From Polaribacter sp. Q13 (GTDB taxonomy: Bacteria; Bacteroidota; Bacteroidia; Flavobacteriales; Flavobacteriaceae), in contig NZ_CP074436.1 in assembly GCF_016858305.2 (NCBI RefSeq), forward strand, positions 2,686,001 to 2,750,000: a stretch of DNA of 64,000 bases, in the 5' to 3' direction. The notes beneath the pieces were generated by a model. The model did not search any database. It saw only the letters and a list, made by a program, of their open reading frames with translations, and was not told the DNA's origin. How positions within the stretch are numbered: the first letter of the stretch is position 1; each line of letters opens with the position of its first letter. Positions 57,863 through 62,509 of this stretch are shown one piece after another. Position numbers and translations under genes: made by a program.

Positions 57863-58525
57863 CTATTTGTAGTCTCTTACAAATTTACGATAATGAATAA
57901 TATCTTGTATAGATAGTACTATCAAATTATGTTCATTTGCAAACTCTAAAATGGTGTCAATTTTCGCCATTGTTCCATCATCGTTCATTAATTCACACAG
58001 TACAGCTTCTGGTTTTAAACCCGCTAATTTCATTAAATCTACGCTTCCTTCCGTATGACCTTTTCTTTCTAAAACACCATTGTCTTTGGCTCTTAAAGGA
58101 AAAATATGTCCGGGTTTTGCTAAATCATTGCTTGTAGCATTTTCTTTACTCGCAGCTTTTATTGTTGTTAACCTATCTTTAGCAGAAACTCCTGTAGTAA
58201 CGCCTTCCTTGGCTTCAATTGAAACTGTAAAAGGAGTTTGGTAGCTACTTGTATTTTCTTTTACCATATAAGGCAGCTCTAATGCATCTGCTTTTTCATT
58301 AGGTAAACAAAGACAAACAATACCACTACATTTACGAATCATAAGTGCCATTTGATTATTGGTCATATGATGTGCAGAGAATACCAAATCTCCTTCATTT
58401 TCCCTATCCTCATCATCCATTAAGATAATTCCATTTCCATTTTGAAGATGTATAAGCGCTTTTTCTAATCGCTCTTTACTATCATTTCCAAACATTCTTA
58501 ATGTATCTAATTCTGTAAGTACCAT
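57863..58525 (-). CDS. ribB: 3,4-dihydroxy-2-butanone 4-phosphate synthase
   Basis: Makes the four-carbon unit of riboflavin from ribulose 5-phosphate; 220 residues, the length of stand-alone RibB. The acidic metal loop [51 protein letters not shown] and [10 protein letters not shown] with His are present. The RibA (GTP cyclohydrolase II) half of the usual flavobacterial RibBA is absent, so this looks like an extra RibB. It forms an operon with the Crp-like gene, behind a promoter at 58552-58559. Confidence 0.93.
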
Positions 58526-58551
58526 TTTAAATTATATTTAATTTAGGAAAG

Positions 58552-58559
58552 CAAAATTA
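58552..58559 (-). promoter_or_regulatory. Promoter -7 box for ribB
   Basis: Minus-strand TAATTTTG, exact TAnnTTTG, 26 bp before the ATG at 58525. No FMN riboswitch is seen. Confidence 0.6.
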
Positions 58560-58689
58560 ATATTGTCTCAAGTAAAATTATTTGATGTAGGTCAATAAAT
58601 TTATTTATTTTTAAATTGAAGAAATTTTACATTTAGAAATAAAACGTAAAGTTTATAGCTATTTTTACGACCAACAGACAAAACAAAAT

Positions 58690-59529
58690 ATGGCAGTCCA
58701 AGACATTGTAAAGTATTCCTTTAAAGAAACCTTTTCTGTAAGTACCGTTCAGTTTGAAAAAGCGTGCACCATAGATCATTCTGTGCAACAGAACGCCTAC
58801 TCTATTTATTGGATTCAAGAAGGAAAAGGAACCTATAATATCGATTTTGAACAATATACTTTTGAAGACAATGTGCTATTTTTCTTGTCTCCAGGGCAAG
58901 TTTTTACGGTAGATTCCGAGCAAATAAAAACCGCCTACAAACTTACTTTTGTGCGTGATTTTTACTGCATACAAACCCACGATCAAGAAGTGGCGTGTAA
59001 CGGAATTCTGTTCAACAATATTTATGAAACTCCGTTTGTAAAACCTTGTGAAAAGGACACGGCAAAACTCAACTTTATTTTAGAAAGTTTAATTGAGGAA
59101 TTTCAACAAAACGAAACCGCACAATATGATATGTTACAATCGTATTTAAAGCAATTTATTATTTCTTCGGTTCGTGTAAAAAAGGAGAATCATGTAATTA
59201 AAGAAGACACCGAAACACGTCTTTTTAAAGATTTTAGTTTGTTGGTAGAACAAAATTTTAGAACCATGCACTCCGTAACCGATTACGCTAACAGATTAGG
59301 ACTTTCGCCAAAATCGATTAGCAAACACTTTCAAAAGTTAGGCGCAAAAACGCCATCCGACTTTATTAAGAACCGTATTTTATTAGAAGCGAAGCGTCAA
59401 CTCATCTATACAGACAAAACTGTAAAAGAAATCGCTTTCGAACTCGGTTTTAACGATCCTGCGTATTTTACACGTTTCTTTACCAAAGCAATTTCTAAAT
59501 CTCCTCTTCAGTTTAAAAAGGAGTATTAG
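58690..59529 (+). CDS. AraC-family transcriptional regulator
   Basis: 279-residue regulator. N-terminal cupin-like sensing domain (about 20-140; YSIYWIQEGKGTYNIDFE, FFLSPGQVF) and a C-terminal AraC helix-turn-helix pair (about 185-279; SVTDYANRLGLSPKSISKHF, KEIAFELGFNDPAYFTRFF). It lies upstream of two redox units that share a tandem GTCCA block, so it probably controls them. Its codon use is somewhat more G/C-rich than the neighbours, a hint of transfer. Its own 5' end is repeated at 57190-57261. Confidence 0.93.
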   Translation: MAVQDIVKYSFKETFSVSTVQFEKACTIDHSVQQNAYSIYWIQEGKGTYNIDFEQYTFEDNVLFFLSPGQVFTVDSEQIKTAYKLTFVRDFYCIQTHDQEVACNGILFNNIYETPFVKPCEKDTAKLNFILESLIEEFQQNETAQYDMLQSYLKQFIISSVRVKKENHVIKEDTETRLFKDFSLLVEQNFRTMHSVTDYANRLGLSPKSISKHFQKLGAKTPSDFIKNRILLEAKRQLIYTDKTVKEIAFELGFNDPAYFTRFFTKAISKSPLQFKKEY

Positions 59530-59610
59530 CTGTTTATATTTTACCTCAGCTTCAATAAAAAACTTCTTCTAAAACACGTAGTAAAAAGATTTATTTTTTT
59601 CCATTCAGTT

Positions 59611-59703
59611 TTGTCATTTCGAACTTTTGAGAGAAATCTCATAACGTTTGCTTGGTGTTGTATTATCACTGTTATGAGATTTCTCCTATTGTCATAATGA
59701 CAA
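59611..59703. repeat. Long imperfect palindrome
   Basis: Outer arms TTGTCATT/AATGACAA and inner arms GAGAAATCTCATAAC/GTTATGAGATTTCTC pair perfectly; the loop is 25 bp. GTCATTTCGA...GAGAAATCTC strings are frequent in flavobacterial intergenic DNA as far as I recall. Probably a dispersed repeat or mobile hairpin. Confidence 0.65.
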
Positions 59704-59752
59704 GTCTGTGGTTTATTGTTATGGCTTAACTCAATATTTTTTTAATTTTCTT

Positions 59753-59848
59753 GGGCGTGCCCTTATCAGGTCAGGCTTTCGCAACTCGCTTTTTAAAGTT
59801 TTATCAAACTTTAAAAGAGCTCAAACAACTTGCTCTATCCTTCACGCG
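59753..59848 (+). repeat. Dispersed hairpin element, copy C
   Basis: 96-bp block from GGGCGTGCCC to TTCACGCG with a perfect 11-bp hairpin TTTTAAAGTTT/AAACTTTAAAA. It aligns with copy A: both have GGGCG, GGTC, GCTTT, a T-rich stem, AAAAG, CAA and a final ACGC. It precedes the trx regulatory block. A 79-codon frame here is read as chance. Confidence 0.6.
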
Positions 59849-59874
59849 TGAATTTTTGCCAACTATTTTCCGTA

Positions 59875-59931
59875 GTCCAAACAGTAGGAACTTTTGTCCA
59901 TTTTTAAACCTTCATCTCGGTTGCATCTTTG
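59875..59931 (+). promoter_or_regulatory. AraC-type operator and promoter before trx
   Basis: Two GTCCA boxes start at 59875 and 59896 (21 bp apart). CATCTTTG, a weak -7 box, starts at 59924, 24 bp after the second box. The same layout recurs at 60357-60413. The -7 differs from TAnnTTTG at its first base, as expected of a promoter that needs an activator. Confidence 0.65.
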
Positions 59932-60003
59932 CAGTGTGTAACAATAACCACACAACAACAAGTAATTTATCCTGCGTTAGCAGCAACTAAAAAATAAGAA
60001 AAA

Positions 60004-60318
60004 ATGGAAATTCAATTAGAACAAATAGACGTAAAAAATATTATAGAAAACAATAGCAATGTATTGTTCGATTTTTATGCAGAATGGTGTGGACCTTGTC
60101 AAACGTTATTACCAACCATCAACAAATTAGCAGACGAATTAAAAGACGATGTAATTATCAAAAAAATAAATGTAGATGACTACCCTGAATTAGCAGCAAA
60201 GTATAGCGTAAGAAATATACCAACTCTAATTTTCTTTAAAAACGGAGAACCTGCAGACAGACATACGGGTTTAATTACAGAAAGAAATTTAAGAAGTAAA
60301 ATAGACAGACTAAAATAA
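60004..60318 (+). CDS. Thioredoxin
   Basis: 104-residue cytoplasmic thioredoxin; reduces disulfides. Active site WCGPC with Cys29 and Cys32 in FDFYAEWCGPCQTL, cis-proline in VRNIPTLIFFKNG. It has its own regulatory block of two GTCCA boxes and a weak -7 box. It lies beside the AraC gene and a second unit with the same block. A role in the redox regulon of 58690-61545 is inferred. Confidence 0.95.
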   Translation: MEIQLEQIDVKNIIENNSNVLFDFYAEWCGPCQTLLPTINKLADELKDDVIIKKINVDDYPELAAKYSVRNIPTLIFFKNGEPADRHTGLITERNLRSKIDRLK

Positions 60319-60356
60319 GCACTGCAATCATCAAAAAAAAAGCAACTTTTTAACGA

Positions 60357-60413
60357 GTCCAAATCAAAGGAACTTTTGTCCAATTTTTGAAGTCACTATC
60401 GGTTGCATCTTTG
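60357..60413 (+). promoter_or_regulatory. AraC-type operator and promoter before mini-protein/AhpD-like unit
   Basis: GTCCA boxes start at 60357 and 60378 (21 bp apart), with AGGAACTTTTGTCCA and GGTTGCATCTTTGCAG shared with the trx block. CATCTTTG starts at 60406, again 24 bp after the second box. Confidence 0.65.
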
Positions 60414-60449
60414 CAGAGTCAAACAGTAACAATTAAAAAATCAAAAATT

Positions 60450-60554
60450 ATGAAAACAATAGAAAACACACAATGCCCAAACTGTTGGGGTTACCAAACC
60501 TACGACGAGCAAAACCCAGAACAACAACTTTGCGAATGCAAAGCATAATATAAA
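60450..60554 (+). CDS. 34-residue cysteine-rich mini-protein
   Basis: Short frame ATG 60450 to TAA 60552-60554. The product has four cysteines in two pairs, CPNC (9 and 12) and CEC (28 and 30), between which lies WGYQTYDEQNPEQQL. This looks like a small zinc- or metal-binding fold. The CPNCWG start resembles small proteins in flavobacterial genomes near similar genes, as far as I recall. It is the first gene of a unit with the AhpD-like gene (43 bp gap) and the cupredoxin gene. Expression is unproven. Confidence 0.7.
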
Positions 60555-60597
60555 AGAAGAATTAAAAATTAATAATAAAACAATTTAAAATAGAATT

Positions 60598-61146
60598 ATG
60601 AGCACATTTAACGTACCAACAAAAAACGAAGTATCAGAAAATAACCAAGCAATTTTTAACCAATTAGAAAAAGGATTAGGTTTTGTACCCAACTTATACG
60701 CAGCCTTTGCACACAGTGAAACTGCATTGGGTAACTTTTTAGCAATAGGACAAGGAAAAACAAGTTTTTCTGCTAAAGAAAAAGAAGTAATCAACTTAGC
60801 GGTAAGTCAAGTAAACGAATGTGTTTATTGTTTATCTGCACACACTGCAATTGGTAAAATGAATGGTTTTACAGAAGATCAAATTTTAGAATTAAGAACA
60901 GGAAATGCTTCTTTTGACGCAAAATTAGACGCCTTAGCAAAGTTTGCAAGAAGTGTAGCACTTAACAGAGGAGCTGCAACACCAGAAACTGTAGAAAACT
61001 TATATGCAGCCGGATATACAAAAGGAAACTTGGCAGATGCAATTATCTTAATAGGAGAAATTACAATTACCAACTACTTTCATAAAACAACAGATGTGGC
61101 TGTAGATTTTCCTGTAGCGCAGACCTTAGAAGTAGCAACAATTTAA
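60598..61146 (+). CDS. AhpD-like carboxymuconolactone decarboxylase family protein
   Basis: 182-residue CMD/AhpD-family protein. The active-site motif is ECVYCLSAHTAIG, with Cys75, Cys78 and His82, as in AhpD-type peroxidases that use thioredoxin-like partners. The Glu before the first Cys (Glu74) is also present. It probably reduces peroxides with help from the trx at 60004. It lies between the Cys-rich mini-protein and the cupredoxin, in the unit behind the second GTCCA block. Confidence 0.9.
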   Translation: MSTFNVPTKNEVSENNQAIFNQLEKGLGFVPNLYAAFAHSETALGNFLAIGQGKTSFSAKEKEVINLAVSQVNECVYCLSAHTAIGKMNGFTEDQILELRTGNASFDAKLDALAKFARSVALNRGAATPETVENLYAAGYTKGNLADAIILIGEITITNYFHKTTDVAVDFPVAQTLEVATI

Positions 61147-61188
61147 TACATAATCAATTTTAATAATAATTAGTAATACACAACAATC

Positions 61189-61545
61189 ATGAAAAAAGTA
61201 ATCGCAATTTTAGTAATCGTTTTAGGTTTCGCATTCAATACAAATGCACAAGAAGTAAAAACAGTTTCATTAGAACAAACCAAGGGTGAGTTTACTCAGA
61301 AACAACTTACATTATCTGAAGGAACTTATGTTTTTGAGGTAGCAAACAACAATGTAGGTCATAATGTAGGTTTTGTTTTAGCTCCAAAAGCAGATGTAAA
61401 AGCGCACATTAAAAACGCGTATGTTACTGCACAAGTAAAAAACAACACCAAAGAAAGCTCTAAAGAAGTAACTCTTAAGAAAGGTGAATATGTGTATTTC
61501 TGTCCTTTAAACCCAACACCACAATATACTTTAATAGTAGAATAG
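61189..61545 (+). CDS. Exported cupredoxin-like protein
   Basis: 118-residue secreted cupredoxin fold. Signal peptide (1-20, ending TNAQ). Copper-type residues are His58 in NNNVGHNVGF and Cys105 in VYFCPLNPTPQY. The second His, usually after CPLNPTP, is Gln112, and no Met follows, so a type 1 copper site would be incomplete. It is the last gene of the mini-protein/AhpD-like unit, and a strong terminator follows 23 bp later. Confidence 0.88.
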   Translation: MKKVIAILVIVLGFAFNTNAQEVKTVSLEQTKGEFTQKQLTLSEGTYVFEVANNNVGHNVGFVLAPKADVKAHIKNAYVTAQVKNNTKESSKEVTLKKGEYVYFCPLNPTPQYTLIVE

Positions 61546-61568
61546 TTCCCTTAATTCAAGTAGTGATT

Positions 61569-61594
61569 GGCGAGCAGAAATGCTCGCCTTTTTT
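61569..61594 (+). terminator. Terminator of the redox unit
   Basis: Perfect stem GGCGAGCA/TGCTCGCC with a GAAA tetraloop and TTTTTT tail, 23 bp after the cupredoxin stop. Confidence 0.95.
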
Positions 61595-61605
61595 ATTAAA
61601 TAAAC

Positions 61606-61631
61606 AACCTCGTACCAATGGGTACGAGGTT
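61606..61631 (-). terminator. Terminator of ppk2
   Basis: Stem AACCTCGTACC/GGTACGAGGTT, 11 bp perfect with a 4-base loop, 70 bp after the ppk2 stop on the minus strand. Confidence 0.8.
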
Positions 61632-61702
61632 ATTTACGTAACAAATATTTCTTATTTCAAGGAAATCATCAGTGATTTAAAACCTTGGTTATCGCCTTGC
61701 TA

Positions 61703-62509
61703 CTAAAACTTTTCTGGTACAAATGTCTGGTAATTCATTGGTGGTCTTACATACGCTTTACCGTCTGGTAATGGCGGAAGCTCAATTGGTTTAATATCCA
61801 TTTGTTCATAAGGAATCTTACTTAACATATGGCTAATACAATTTAACCTAGCTTTCTTTTTATTTTCTGAATTCACTACAAACCAAGGCACTTGTTTGGT
61901 GTCTGTATGTGCAAACATTTGATCTTTTGCTTTTGAATACTCTAACCAACGTGAACGAGATTGTAAATCCATCGGACTAAATTTCCATCTTTTTAAAGGA
62001 TTAGAAATACGGTTTTTAAAACGTCTTTCTTGTTCTTCATCACTAACAGAAAACCAATATTTTAAAACAATAATGCCAGATCTTACCAACATGCGTTCAA
62101 ATTCTGGGCAAGAACGTAAAAACTCATCATATTCATCATCTGTACAAAAACCCATTACTTTTTCTACACCTGCTCTGTTGTACCAGCTTCTATCAAACAA
62201 CACGATTTCTCCTGCGGCAGGTAAATATTGCACATAACGTTGAAAATACCATTGCGACTTTTCTTTTTCGGTAGGAACACCCAATGCAACTACTTTACAA
62301 ATTCTAGGGTTTAAAGGCTCTGTAAAACGTTTTATAGTTCCTCCTTTTCCAGAAGCATCTCTTCCTTCAAAAAGGATCACTACTTTTAAACCTTGGTTTT
62401 TAACCCATTCTTGCATGTGCACCAATTCTGTGTGCAATATTTTTAATTCATCGTCGTAATTAAATTTCTTCTTATTACTATTTGTTGGTGTTGGTGTAGC
62501 TTTTTCCAT
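61703..62509 (-). CDS. ppk2: Polyphosphate kinase 2
   Basis: PPK2-family kinase that uses polyphosphate to phosphorylate nucleotides; 268 residues, single domain. Walker A FEGRDASGKGGTIKRF, the lid/Walker B segment EIVLFDRSWYNRAGVEKVMG, and VVALGVPTEKEKSQWYFQRY are diagnostic. The size fits class I. Neighbours do not suggest a pathway; no ppk1 is in the window. Confidence 0.94.
   Translation of the reverse strand: MEKATPTPTNSNKKKFNYDDELKILHTELVHMQEWVKNQGLKVVILFEGRDASGKGGTIKRFTEPLNPRICKVVALGVPTEKEKSQWYFQRYVQYLPAAGEIVLFDRSWYNRAGVEKVMGFCTDDEYDEFLRSCPEFERMLVRSGIIVLKYWFSVSDEEQERRFKNRISNPLKRWKFSPMDLQSRSRWLEYSKAKDQMFAHTDTKQVPWFVVNSENKKKARLNCISHMLSKIPYEQMDIKPIELPPLPDGKAYVRPPMNYQTFVPEKF

Follow-up and report, generated by a model that had tools for sequence, protein, structure and literature searches.

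A putative tandem-box promoter block tied to a neighbouring AraC-family regulator precedes two redox gene units in Polaribacter sp. Q13

Two copies of a 72-bp block, made of two direct boxes 21 bp apart, 19 bp and then NANNTTTG, lie downstream of an AraC-family gene in Polaribacter sp. Q13, the first ahead of a thioredoxin gene and the second ahead of a unit that encodes a 32-aa cysteine protein, a CMD/AhpD-like protein and a cupredoxin-like protein. Comparison with related genomes defines the block, its spacing and its limits, and ties it to the neighbouring AraC gene. On this comparative ground we consider it highly probable that the AraC protein binds the blocks and, with somewhat less assurance, probable that the boxes are AraC boxes and that both units are activated from the blocks. 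The window referred to throughout is the whole stretch of DNA that was analysed, 64,000 nucleotides long, from a genome of 4.42 Mb in a single contig.

The features of the locus, all on the + strand from 58690, follow one another in the order araC, block 1, thioredoxin, block 2, 32-aa Cys protein, CMD/AhpD-like protein, cupredoxin-like protein and hairpin (Table 1). This is the layout that an earlier note on this DNA had given, with the AraC gene upstream, block 1 preceding thioredoxin and block 2 preceding the 32-aa ORF, CMD and cupredoxin. The same note had described GTCCA pairs spaced by 21 bp and a CATCTTTG box 24 bp after the second GTCCA, and both distances are exact: the pairs start at 59875/59896 and 60357/60378, and the CATCTTTG box begins 24 nt past the last base of the second GTCCA in either block. 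Blocks 1 and 2 are copies of a 94-nt direct repeat with 72% identity. The promoter numbering used here was derived from the position of the sigma-A -7 box, given as -12 to -5 in the accessible text of PMC9723704, and places the distal GTCCA at about -61 to -57 and the proximal box at about -50 to -36. Transcription is predicted to begin near 59936 and 60418. The first base of the -7 element is C instead of T, a departure that is kept in at least 90% of 68 aligned blocks and is absent at the rclC homologues described below. GTCCA itself had been proposed as the box; the consensus across relatives makes it only the 3' half of a box of roughly 15 bp.

Table 1. Positions in the window of the AraC gene, the two blocks and the two units behind them
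Feature	Position	Strand	Remarks
AraC-family regulator, 279 aa; cupin-like N-domain, C26, C-terminal double HTH	58690..59529	+	
AraC motif C93-x3-H97-D98-x-E100-V-x-C103	in 58690..59529 gene	+	
Block 1, tandem putative AraC boxes and -7 element, 5' of thioredoxin	59865..59936	+	
Block 1 distal box, conserved half GTCCA; 5' half no longer matches relatives	59875..59879	+	
Block 1 proximal box AGGAACTTTTGTCCA	59886..59900	+	about -50 to -36
Block 1 -7 element CATCTTTG	59924..59931	+	
Thioredoxin, 104 aa, WCGPC; optional member	60004..60318	+	TIGR01068 106.8 bits, cut-off 96.8
Block 2, tandem putative AraC boxes and -7 element, 5' of mini-protein, CMD and cupredoxin	60347..60418	+	
Block 2 distal box GTCCA	60357..60361	+	
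Block 2 proximal box AGGAACTTTTGTCCA	60368..60382	+	
Block 2 -7 element CATCTTTG	60406..60413	+	
32-aa Cys protein, CPNCWGYQTYDEQ...CEC	60450..60548	+	
CMD/AhpD-like protein, 182 aa, E-X11-C-X2-C-X3-H	60598..61146	+	PF02627 56.3 bits; TIGR00778 over cut-off
Cupredoxin-like protein, 118 aa, signal-peptide-like start	61189..61545	+	PF13473 30.9 bits, cut-off 27
Intrinsic-terminator-like hairpin and T run, end of second unit	61569..61594	+	sequence read directly

The bare GTCCA pair by itself is weak evidence. On its forward strand the genome has three copies of GTCCA-N16-GTCCA, two of these being the blocks, and on the reverse strand it has none, and a control search with the reversed pattern gave 10 and 9 matches; counting GTCCA pairs in the genome was dropped as proof since this control outnumbers the real pairs. 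The full block, unlike the bare pair, is more than chance. The pattern AGTCCA-N6-10-GGAACTTTTGTCCA was found genome-wide at the two blocks alone, with a control count of 0, and a 72-bp model run over the genome returned them at E=1.2e-9 and 1.4e-6 (both blocks belonged to its training set), with the next-best site at 0.025. Pattern and model searches of the source genome revealed no third block of the window's class; a sister-type box pair occurs elsewhere in it, at an rclC homologue.

Orthologs of the AraC protein were found in 31 of the 58 genomes of the genus (E <= 2.7e-124), and the nearest relatives with names are mostly from Polaribacter. The earlier note had held that its proposal would be refuted if relatives with these genes failed to conserve the GTCCA pair; all 30 genus genomes with both an AraC ortholog and the cassette keep the block. 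These counts leave aside L123-L126, which duplicate other loci; for L087-L106 the fetched sequence extends at most 1.5 kb on each side of AraC, and one of the two AraC ortholog copies listed for G202 was examined. The proximal GTCCA is present in every one of the 30. In the first block, the distal GTCCA is unchanged in 27 and differs by one base in L102, L109 and L110; L088 reads GTCCT in its second block. The sole AraC ortholog without the cassette (L105, 87%) has no block either. By eye, the sequence past the L105 AraC gene looks transposase-like.

All 12 genus loci with thioredoxin have two blocks, and all 18 cassettes without it have one. The number of blocks in the genus loci equals the number of transcription units, and each unit thus has its own block. 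Thioredoxin had been counted in the earlier note as a member of the regulon; it is indeed preceded by a block, but it is optional, being present in 12 of the 20 closest genus loci. Judged from the compared loci, thioredoxin is a passenger that arrived with a copy of the promoter, and the core of the cassette is AraC, the small Cys protein, CMD and cupredoxin. When orthologous blocks from 19 genus loci were compared in 10-nt bins, identity was 83-100% in the boxes and 82-98% in the -7 element, 59-77% in the spacer and 36-78% in the flanks. The two blocks of L100, unlike those of the window, have most of the spacer in common, which suggests that one block was copied onto the other in that locus.

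The AraC gene and its block were also looked for in other flavobacterial genomes, as the earlier note had advised, and the pair was found in 56 genomes of other genera in addition to the 30 of the genus. The family survey covered 199 genomes, in which the CMD protein led to 52 loci, each taken at 13 kb. An AraC gene lies on the same strand no more than 2.3 kb upstream of CMD in 40 of them; in the other 12 it is downstream on the same strand (5), on the opposite strand (3), absent (3) or represented by a 24% match only (1). Nearly all of these AraC proteins are 33-43% identical to that of the window, the one in L037 reaching 67%. Most of the family CMD loci contain a tandem block 3' of araC, often a few bases past the stop codon, and many contain a second block ahead of CMD. 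The family form of the block has two copies of aGGGAA-N-ATtgaCA at 21 bp and, 19 bp further on, CATCTTTG, and 66 blocks score above 14 with a family matrix that reaches at most 7.7 in 265 mononucleotide-shuffled regions. This matrix, which was hand-seeded on GGGAA-type boxes, missed the window's blocks (the window region scored -4.1), and they were then aligned to the family blocks by position. A single matrix for all blocks was rejected for having missed the window's class, and two classes were used instead. By this alignment, the GTCCA class is a divergent form of the block, with the consensus GTCCAA-N4-A-gGAACtTTTGTCCATTTT and a distal box whose 5' half no longer matches. It also occurs outside Polaribacter, where untrained members were recovered by model in, for example, L143, L148, L154-L157 and L159; model R1 had 68 training blocks, among them both of the window's.

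The spacing was measured across the relatives. The proximal 15-mer and the 15-mer 21 bp upstream of it have an identity of 0.562 over 94 blocks, compared with a mean of 0.262 and a maximum of 0.368 at other offsets. The distance between the 40-mer and NANNTTTG is 19 bp in 67 of 69 relatives' blocks, a set in which 64 blocks were chosen by a box matrix blind to NANNTTTG (62 of the 64 at 19 bp) and five were added by hand.

With a cut-off of E <= 1e-4, the 199 family genomes contain 109 block hits, and 90 of these fall in the 1.5 kb that precede one of the 84 best-ranked CMD matches; of the 30 lower-ranked CMD rows, 17 also carry a block. Examination of 18 of the 19 non-CMD blocks (all save G044:575518) found an AraC homologue in the fetched region for all except L145 and L151; for one block each in L141 and L153 the homologue is 4-7 kb off. 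A phylum-wide sample searched at the same cut-off has the block in 18 of 247 genomes, four of them outside the family. Among the 21 phylum-wide blocks examined, out of 27 matches, 14 have a Cys-motif AraC at a distance of 2.5 kb or less and 7 are without one. Eight genomes contain two AraC-block pairs, and in these the block of the nearest outside AraC chose the right partner in 14 of 16 tests; two of the eight belong to the genus and carry both box classes (L110/L118 and L115/L119). Over 94 of 99 loci (L065, L076 and L083 had no AraC hit, and L068 and L080 were removed by filters on length, distance or score), the boxes and the HTH parts correlate in identity at r=0.815, the maximum of 500 permutations being 0.089. 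The N-domain correlates with the boxes no less well (r=0.855); common descent thus accounts for part of the correlation, and we do not claim coevolution with the boxes that is specific to the HTH. The idea that the tandem boxes are under AraC control, put forward in the earlier note, is supported by comparison through the conservation of the block, the count of units and this cognate pairing.

The regulator belongs to the AraC/XylS type by its double HTH (HTH_18 78.2 bits, cut-off 33.6) and its cupin-like N-terminal regulatory domain, and the direct repeats of the blocks, two helical turns apart with the proximal one beside -35/-33, have the form of AraC-type tandem sites. C93 and C103 lie in a conserved loop, F-[YF]-C-I-x2-H-x2-E-V-x-C-x-G-x-L-F, and are present in 94/94 AraC proteins of the paired set, so we propose a thiol switch as the simplest reading of the pair, with a metal site as its main rival. 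F87, F91, G105 and L107 of the N-domain are as invariant as the two cysteines. In the control set (34 homologues in 28 control or other loci, with 20 loci fetched as paralog controls), no block scoring above 15 was found beside any AraC homologue that is without C93. C103 as a strict requirement was rejected because the block-linked paralogs of L120 and L175, which stand outside the 94, have Thr at position 103. Both cysteines are also present in four AraC proteins beside which no block scores above 15 (L105, L121 twice and L122), and at L122 shorter boxes are present. Position 26 or one next to it is a Cys in 38/38 proteins of the window's box class and in 0/7 and 5/49 of the other two. The structure model of the protein (mean pLDDT 84) places C93 and C103 where the last cupin strand ends and beyond it, within a stretch of low confidence. 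Structure comparison returned only general AraC matches for the whole protein, with AraC-type domains matching the HTH region, and the matches in a sequence search of solved structures are confined to the DNA-binding part.

The genes behind the blocks were compared as well. A search for the CPNCW codons found the mini-protein ORF in 33 of 36 loci, the other three being L092, L105 and L113, and in 32 of the 33 it reads on as CPNCWG[YF]QxY; in L096 the frame breaks after CPNCW. The 32-aa Cys protein has no Pfam or NCBIfam hit. A longer protein of 90 aa with the mini-protein motif, CPNCWG, stands behind a block and ahead of MsrA in L192, which is outside the family. The CMD protein has the AhpD-like core (TIGR00778 53.6 bits, cut-off 27.8), and with TIGR01926 (peroxidase-related enzyme) it scores 70.1 bits, under the cut-off of 81.8; the E-X11-C-X2-C-X3-H motif is present in 80/80 CMD proteins longer than 120 aa from the fetched loci. 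Type-1 copper cupredoxins are expected to have a His at Cys+3 as the C-terminal ligand. The window's cupredoxin reads CPLNPTPQ, with Asn at Cys+3 in place of the type-1 Cys-x2-His, and the same Asn is found in the 12 commonest cupredoxin types, covering 50 of 54 homologues. Units behind blocks elsewhere encode thioredoxins (43-55% identical to the window's), OsmC, MsrA and CMD, and other genes so placed encode isochorismatase-like and alpha/beta hydrolases, DUF1348, a quinone-reductase-like dehydrogenase and SDR. In L140, L141, L142, L144, L145 and L146, the gene that comes first after a GGGAA-type block encodes an isochorismatase-like hydrolase whose start resembles a signal peptide; the hydrolase assignment was checked with Pfam for L140 and L145. 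A different small protein (~50-58 aa, HCEQKH..HDFYCDAE) takes the slot of the mini-protein in L036 and other family loci; among 120 listed of its 195 relatives, those with a name are called 'hypothetical' or 'uncharacterized'.

We incline, with limited confidence, to the view that the AraC protein senses thiol oxidants. A signal of another kind, with AraC still controlling both blocks, would be a metal: C93, H97, D98, E100 and C103 could together coordinate copper or zinc, and the cupredoxin could be a sign of a metal response. We regard this as unlikely, although H97, D98 and E100 are at least 90% conserved in the aligned AraC proteins beside both cysteines and a cupredoxin, without CMD, is the earliest gene to be recognised as a target in L143, L148 and L151 and comes after the small Cys protein in L147. 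The cupredoxin is without the C-terminal His of the classical type-1 site, and no copper exporter or metallochaperone was noticed by eye among the ORFs behind the blocks, where thioredoxin, OsmC and MsrA are found. It is also doubtful that AraC is a small-molecule sensor of the HpaA/PobR type, with an aromatic acid or a quinone in its cupin pocket and structural cysteines. HpaA (TIGR02297) is the best NCBIfam model for the protein, at 126.3 bits over residues 36-277, but this is far under the cut-off of 274.65, and the recurrent neighbours differ from those of that type in being thiol-redox proteins. Several relatives are named 'transcriptional activator of pobA' by JGI, the fold of the N-domain is closest to the sugar-sensing RhaR in structure comparison, and the isochorismatase-like and alpha/beta hydrolases, the quinone-reductase-like dehydrogenase and SDR would suit an organic substrate; against this stands the place of both cysteines among the seven invariant residues in the first 180 positions of 61 aligned AraC proteins. 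That the blocks are ordinary sigma-A promoters without any role for AraC, duplicated by chance when thioredoxin was inserted and alike through recent copying, is very improbable: the shared spacer of the L100 blocks does look like copying, but the boxes are conserved while spacers and flanks drift, the fixed-spacing pair recurs beside AraC genes in the other genera, blocks pair with their own AraC type within a genome, and the L105 ortholog, without targets, has no block.

A second set of loci suggests a link to the reactive-chlorine response, to which RclC belongs. A second AraC protein with the same Cys motif is encoded in the window's own genome (L122, C1 at about 1.421 Mb), with its own 21-bp TCCA pair, and its gene adjoins a DUF417 gene, 49% identical to E. 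coli RclC, and a short-chain dehydrogenase gene. DUF417 is rare, scoring over the cut-off in 6 of the 199 family genomes. A Cys-motif AraC lies directly upstream of the DUF417 gene in 5 of the 6, the window's genome included; the sixth DUF417 gene is partial and near a contig end, with no Cys motif in 6 kb. All five AraC-DUF417 gaps contain [AG]TCCA-like pairs exactly 21 bp apart: two gaps have both boxes perfect, and in the other three the distal box has a single mismatch. From the pair to NANNTTTG there are 23 nt, the window's spacing, in four gaps and 22 in one. The 72-bp matrices give low scores at these five promoters (6.6, -8.4, 12.3, 9.0 and 18.5), so their likeness to the window's blocks rests on the shorter shared pattern. 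At L195, in another genome, OsmC stands behind a block and is followed by a DUF417 gene (54% to RclC), and the DUF417 gene of G384 is 54% identical to E. coli RclC.

In P. aeruginosa, according to the accessible text of PMC7950407, RclR, an AraC protein, switches on the AhpD-like gene rclX in response to HOCl and HOSCN and protects against both; the mutant was unaffected by the other oxidants and electrophiles tested. E. coli RclR is an AraC protein activated via oxidation of C21 and C89, as the corresponding text of PMC7464077 has it. The locus described here resembles RclR-RclX and RclR-rclABC in that an AraC-type regulator adjoins its target, which in P. aeruginosa is an AhpD-like CXXC protein, in the sensing by cysteines that we propose for the window's AraC, and in the sister AraC proteins that adjoin DUF417 (rclC-type) genes. 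It differs in its small Cys proteins, thioredoxin and cupredoxin, which are new parts, and in that E. coli RclR has Cupin_6, for which there was no hit in the window's AraC or in 3 relatives scanned. Membership in RclR was rejected for this lack of Cupin_6. A profile comparison of RclR with the window's AraC by hhalign aligns the HTH part alone and not the N-domains; the placement of RclR C21 on C26, and of RclR C86 (not C89) on C93, in one MAFFT alignment is for that reason a lead and was not adopted as a correspondence. By analogy, the AraC protein may work like RclR though it is not RclR. Another known arrangement is that of E. coli AraC at araI1-I2, where two direct half-sites are 21 bp apart and the proximal one is next to the -35 region; the window's boxes are also direct, 21 bp apart and proximal near the -35 region. 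E. coli AraC has a sugar ligand and a distant looping half-site. Tandem direct repeats averaging 21 bp have been predicted for the AraC-type domains of Bacteroides HTCS and read as a dimer on one face of the DNA (PMC3878776, accessible text). These sites resemble the blocks in spacing, but HTCS are hybrid sensor kinases for polysaccharides, and the window's AraC is a one-component protein of 279 aa in which only HTH domains were matched and no fused sensor kinase.

We infer binding, activation and a thiol-oxidation signal through C93/C103, and the mechanism that we propose is as follows. Both blocks would be activator-dependent sigma-A promoters. A dimer of the AraC protein encoded upstream would bind the two ~15-bp boxes, which lie two turns (21 bp) apart on the same DNA face, with the proximal box ending beside -33, and would recruit polymerase to the -7 element with its non-consensus first base. 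The oxidised form of AraC would occupy both boxes and switch on two units together, that of thioredoxin and that of the Cys mini-protein, the AhpD-like CMD and the cupredoxin. Thiol oxidation would be sensed by the C93/C103 pair, perhaps with C26, and it would fall to thioredoxin and CMD to repair or remove thiol oxidants. For the stress or peroxide system suggested in the earlier note, peroxide is one option only, and the neighbours would equally suit thiol oxidants of the hypochlorous-acid kind. Strong thiol oxidants would be likely signals, and a reactive halogen (HOCl, HOBr) is our first, tentative guess, made by analogy because sister AraC genes adjoin rclC homologues with like boxes and because MsrA, OsmC and an AhpD-like protein, of which RclR-RclX also has the last kind, are among the products of units behind blocks. 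It is a speculative and rather unlikely extension that the Bacteroidota as a whole have an independently built, RclR-like halogen response, in which the C-x3-H-x2-E-V-x-C loop of an AraC subfamily would be a HOCl/HOBr thiol switch and the 72-bp block a portable element copied for each new gene.

Algal haloperoxidases make hypohalous acids, and if the halogen reading is true, seaweed-associated Polaribacter and its kin would answer hypohalous acids of this origin. If the mechanism proposed above is true, it would provide a sequence-defined and easily tested promoter and sensor common to many marine bacteria found alongside algae. It would also be a second way of arriving at RclR-like sensing and would place two families of very small cysteine proteins without a Pfam name in a context. 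To our knowledge, thiol- and halogen-stress regulators are hardly known in flavobacteria. Tandem AraC sites and AraC redox sensors are already known types. Searches of the accessible open-access literature, outside of which fall preprints and most subscription papers, gave no description of this AraC, block or cassette, nor of its regulon or sensor motif.

An RNA element at the blocks was considered and rejected: an Rfam scan of 58500-62500 gave two hits, both far under their gathering scores and neither of them over the blocks. The interval between araC and block 1 contains a REP-like inverted element, GTCATTTCGA...GAGAAATCTC and its mirror, at 59613-59685, and the half element occurs 13 times in the source genome.
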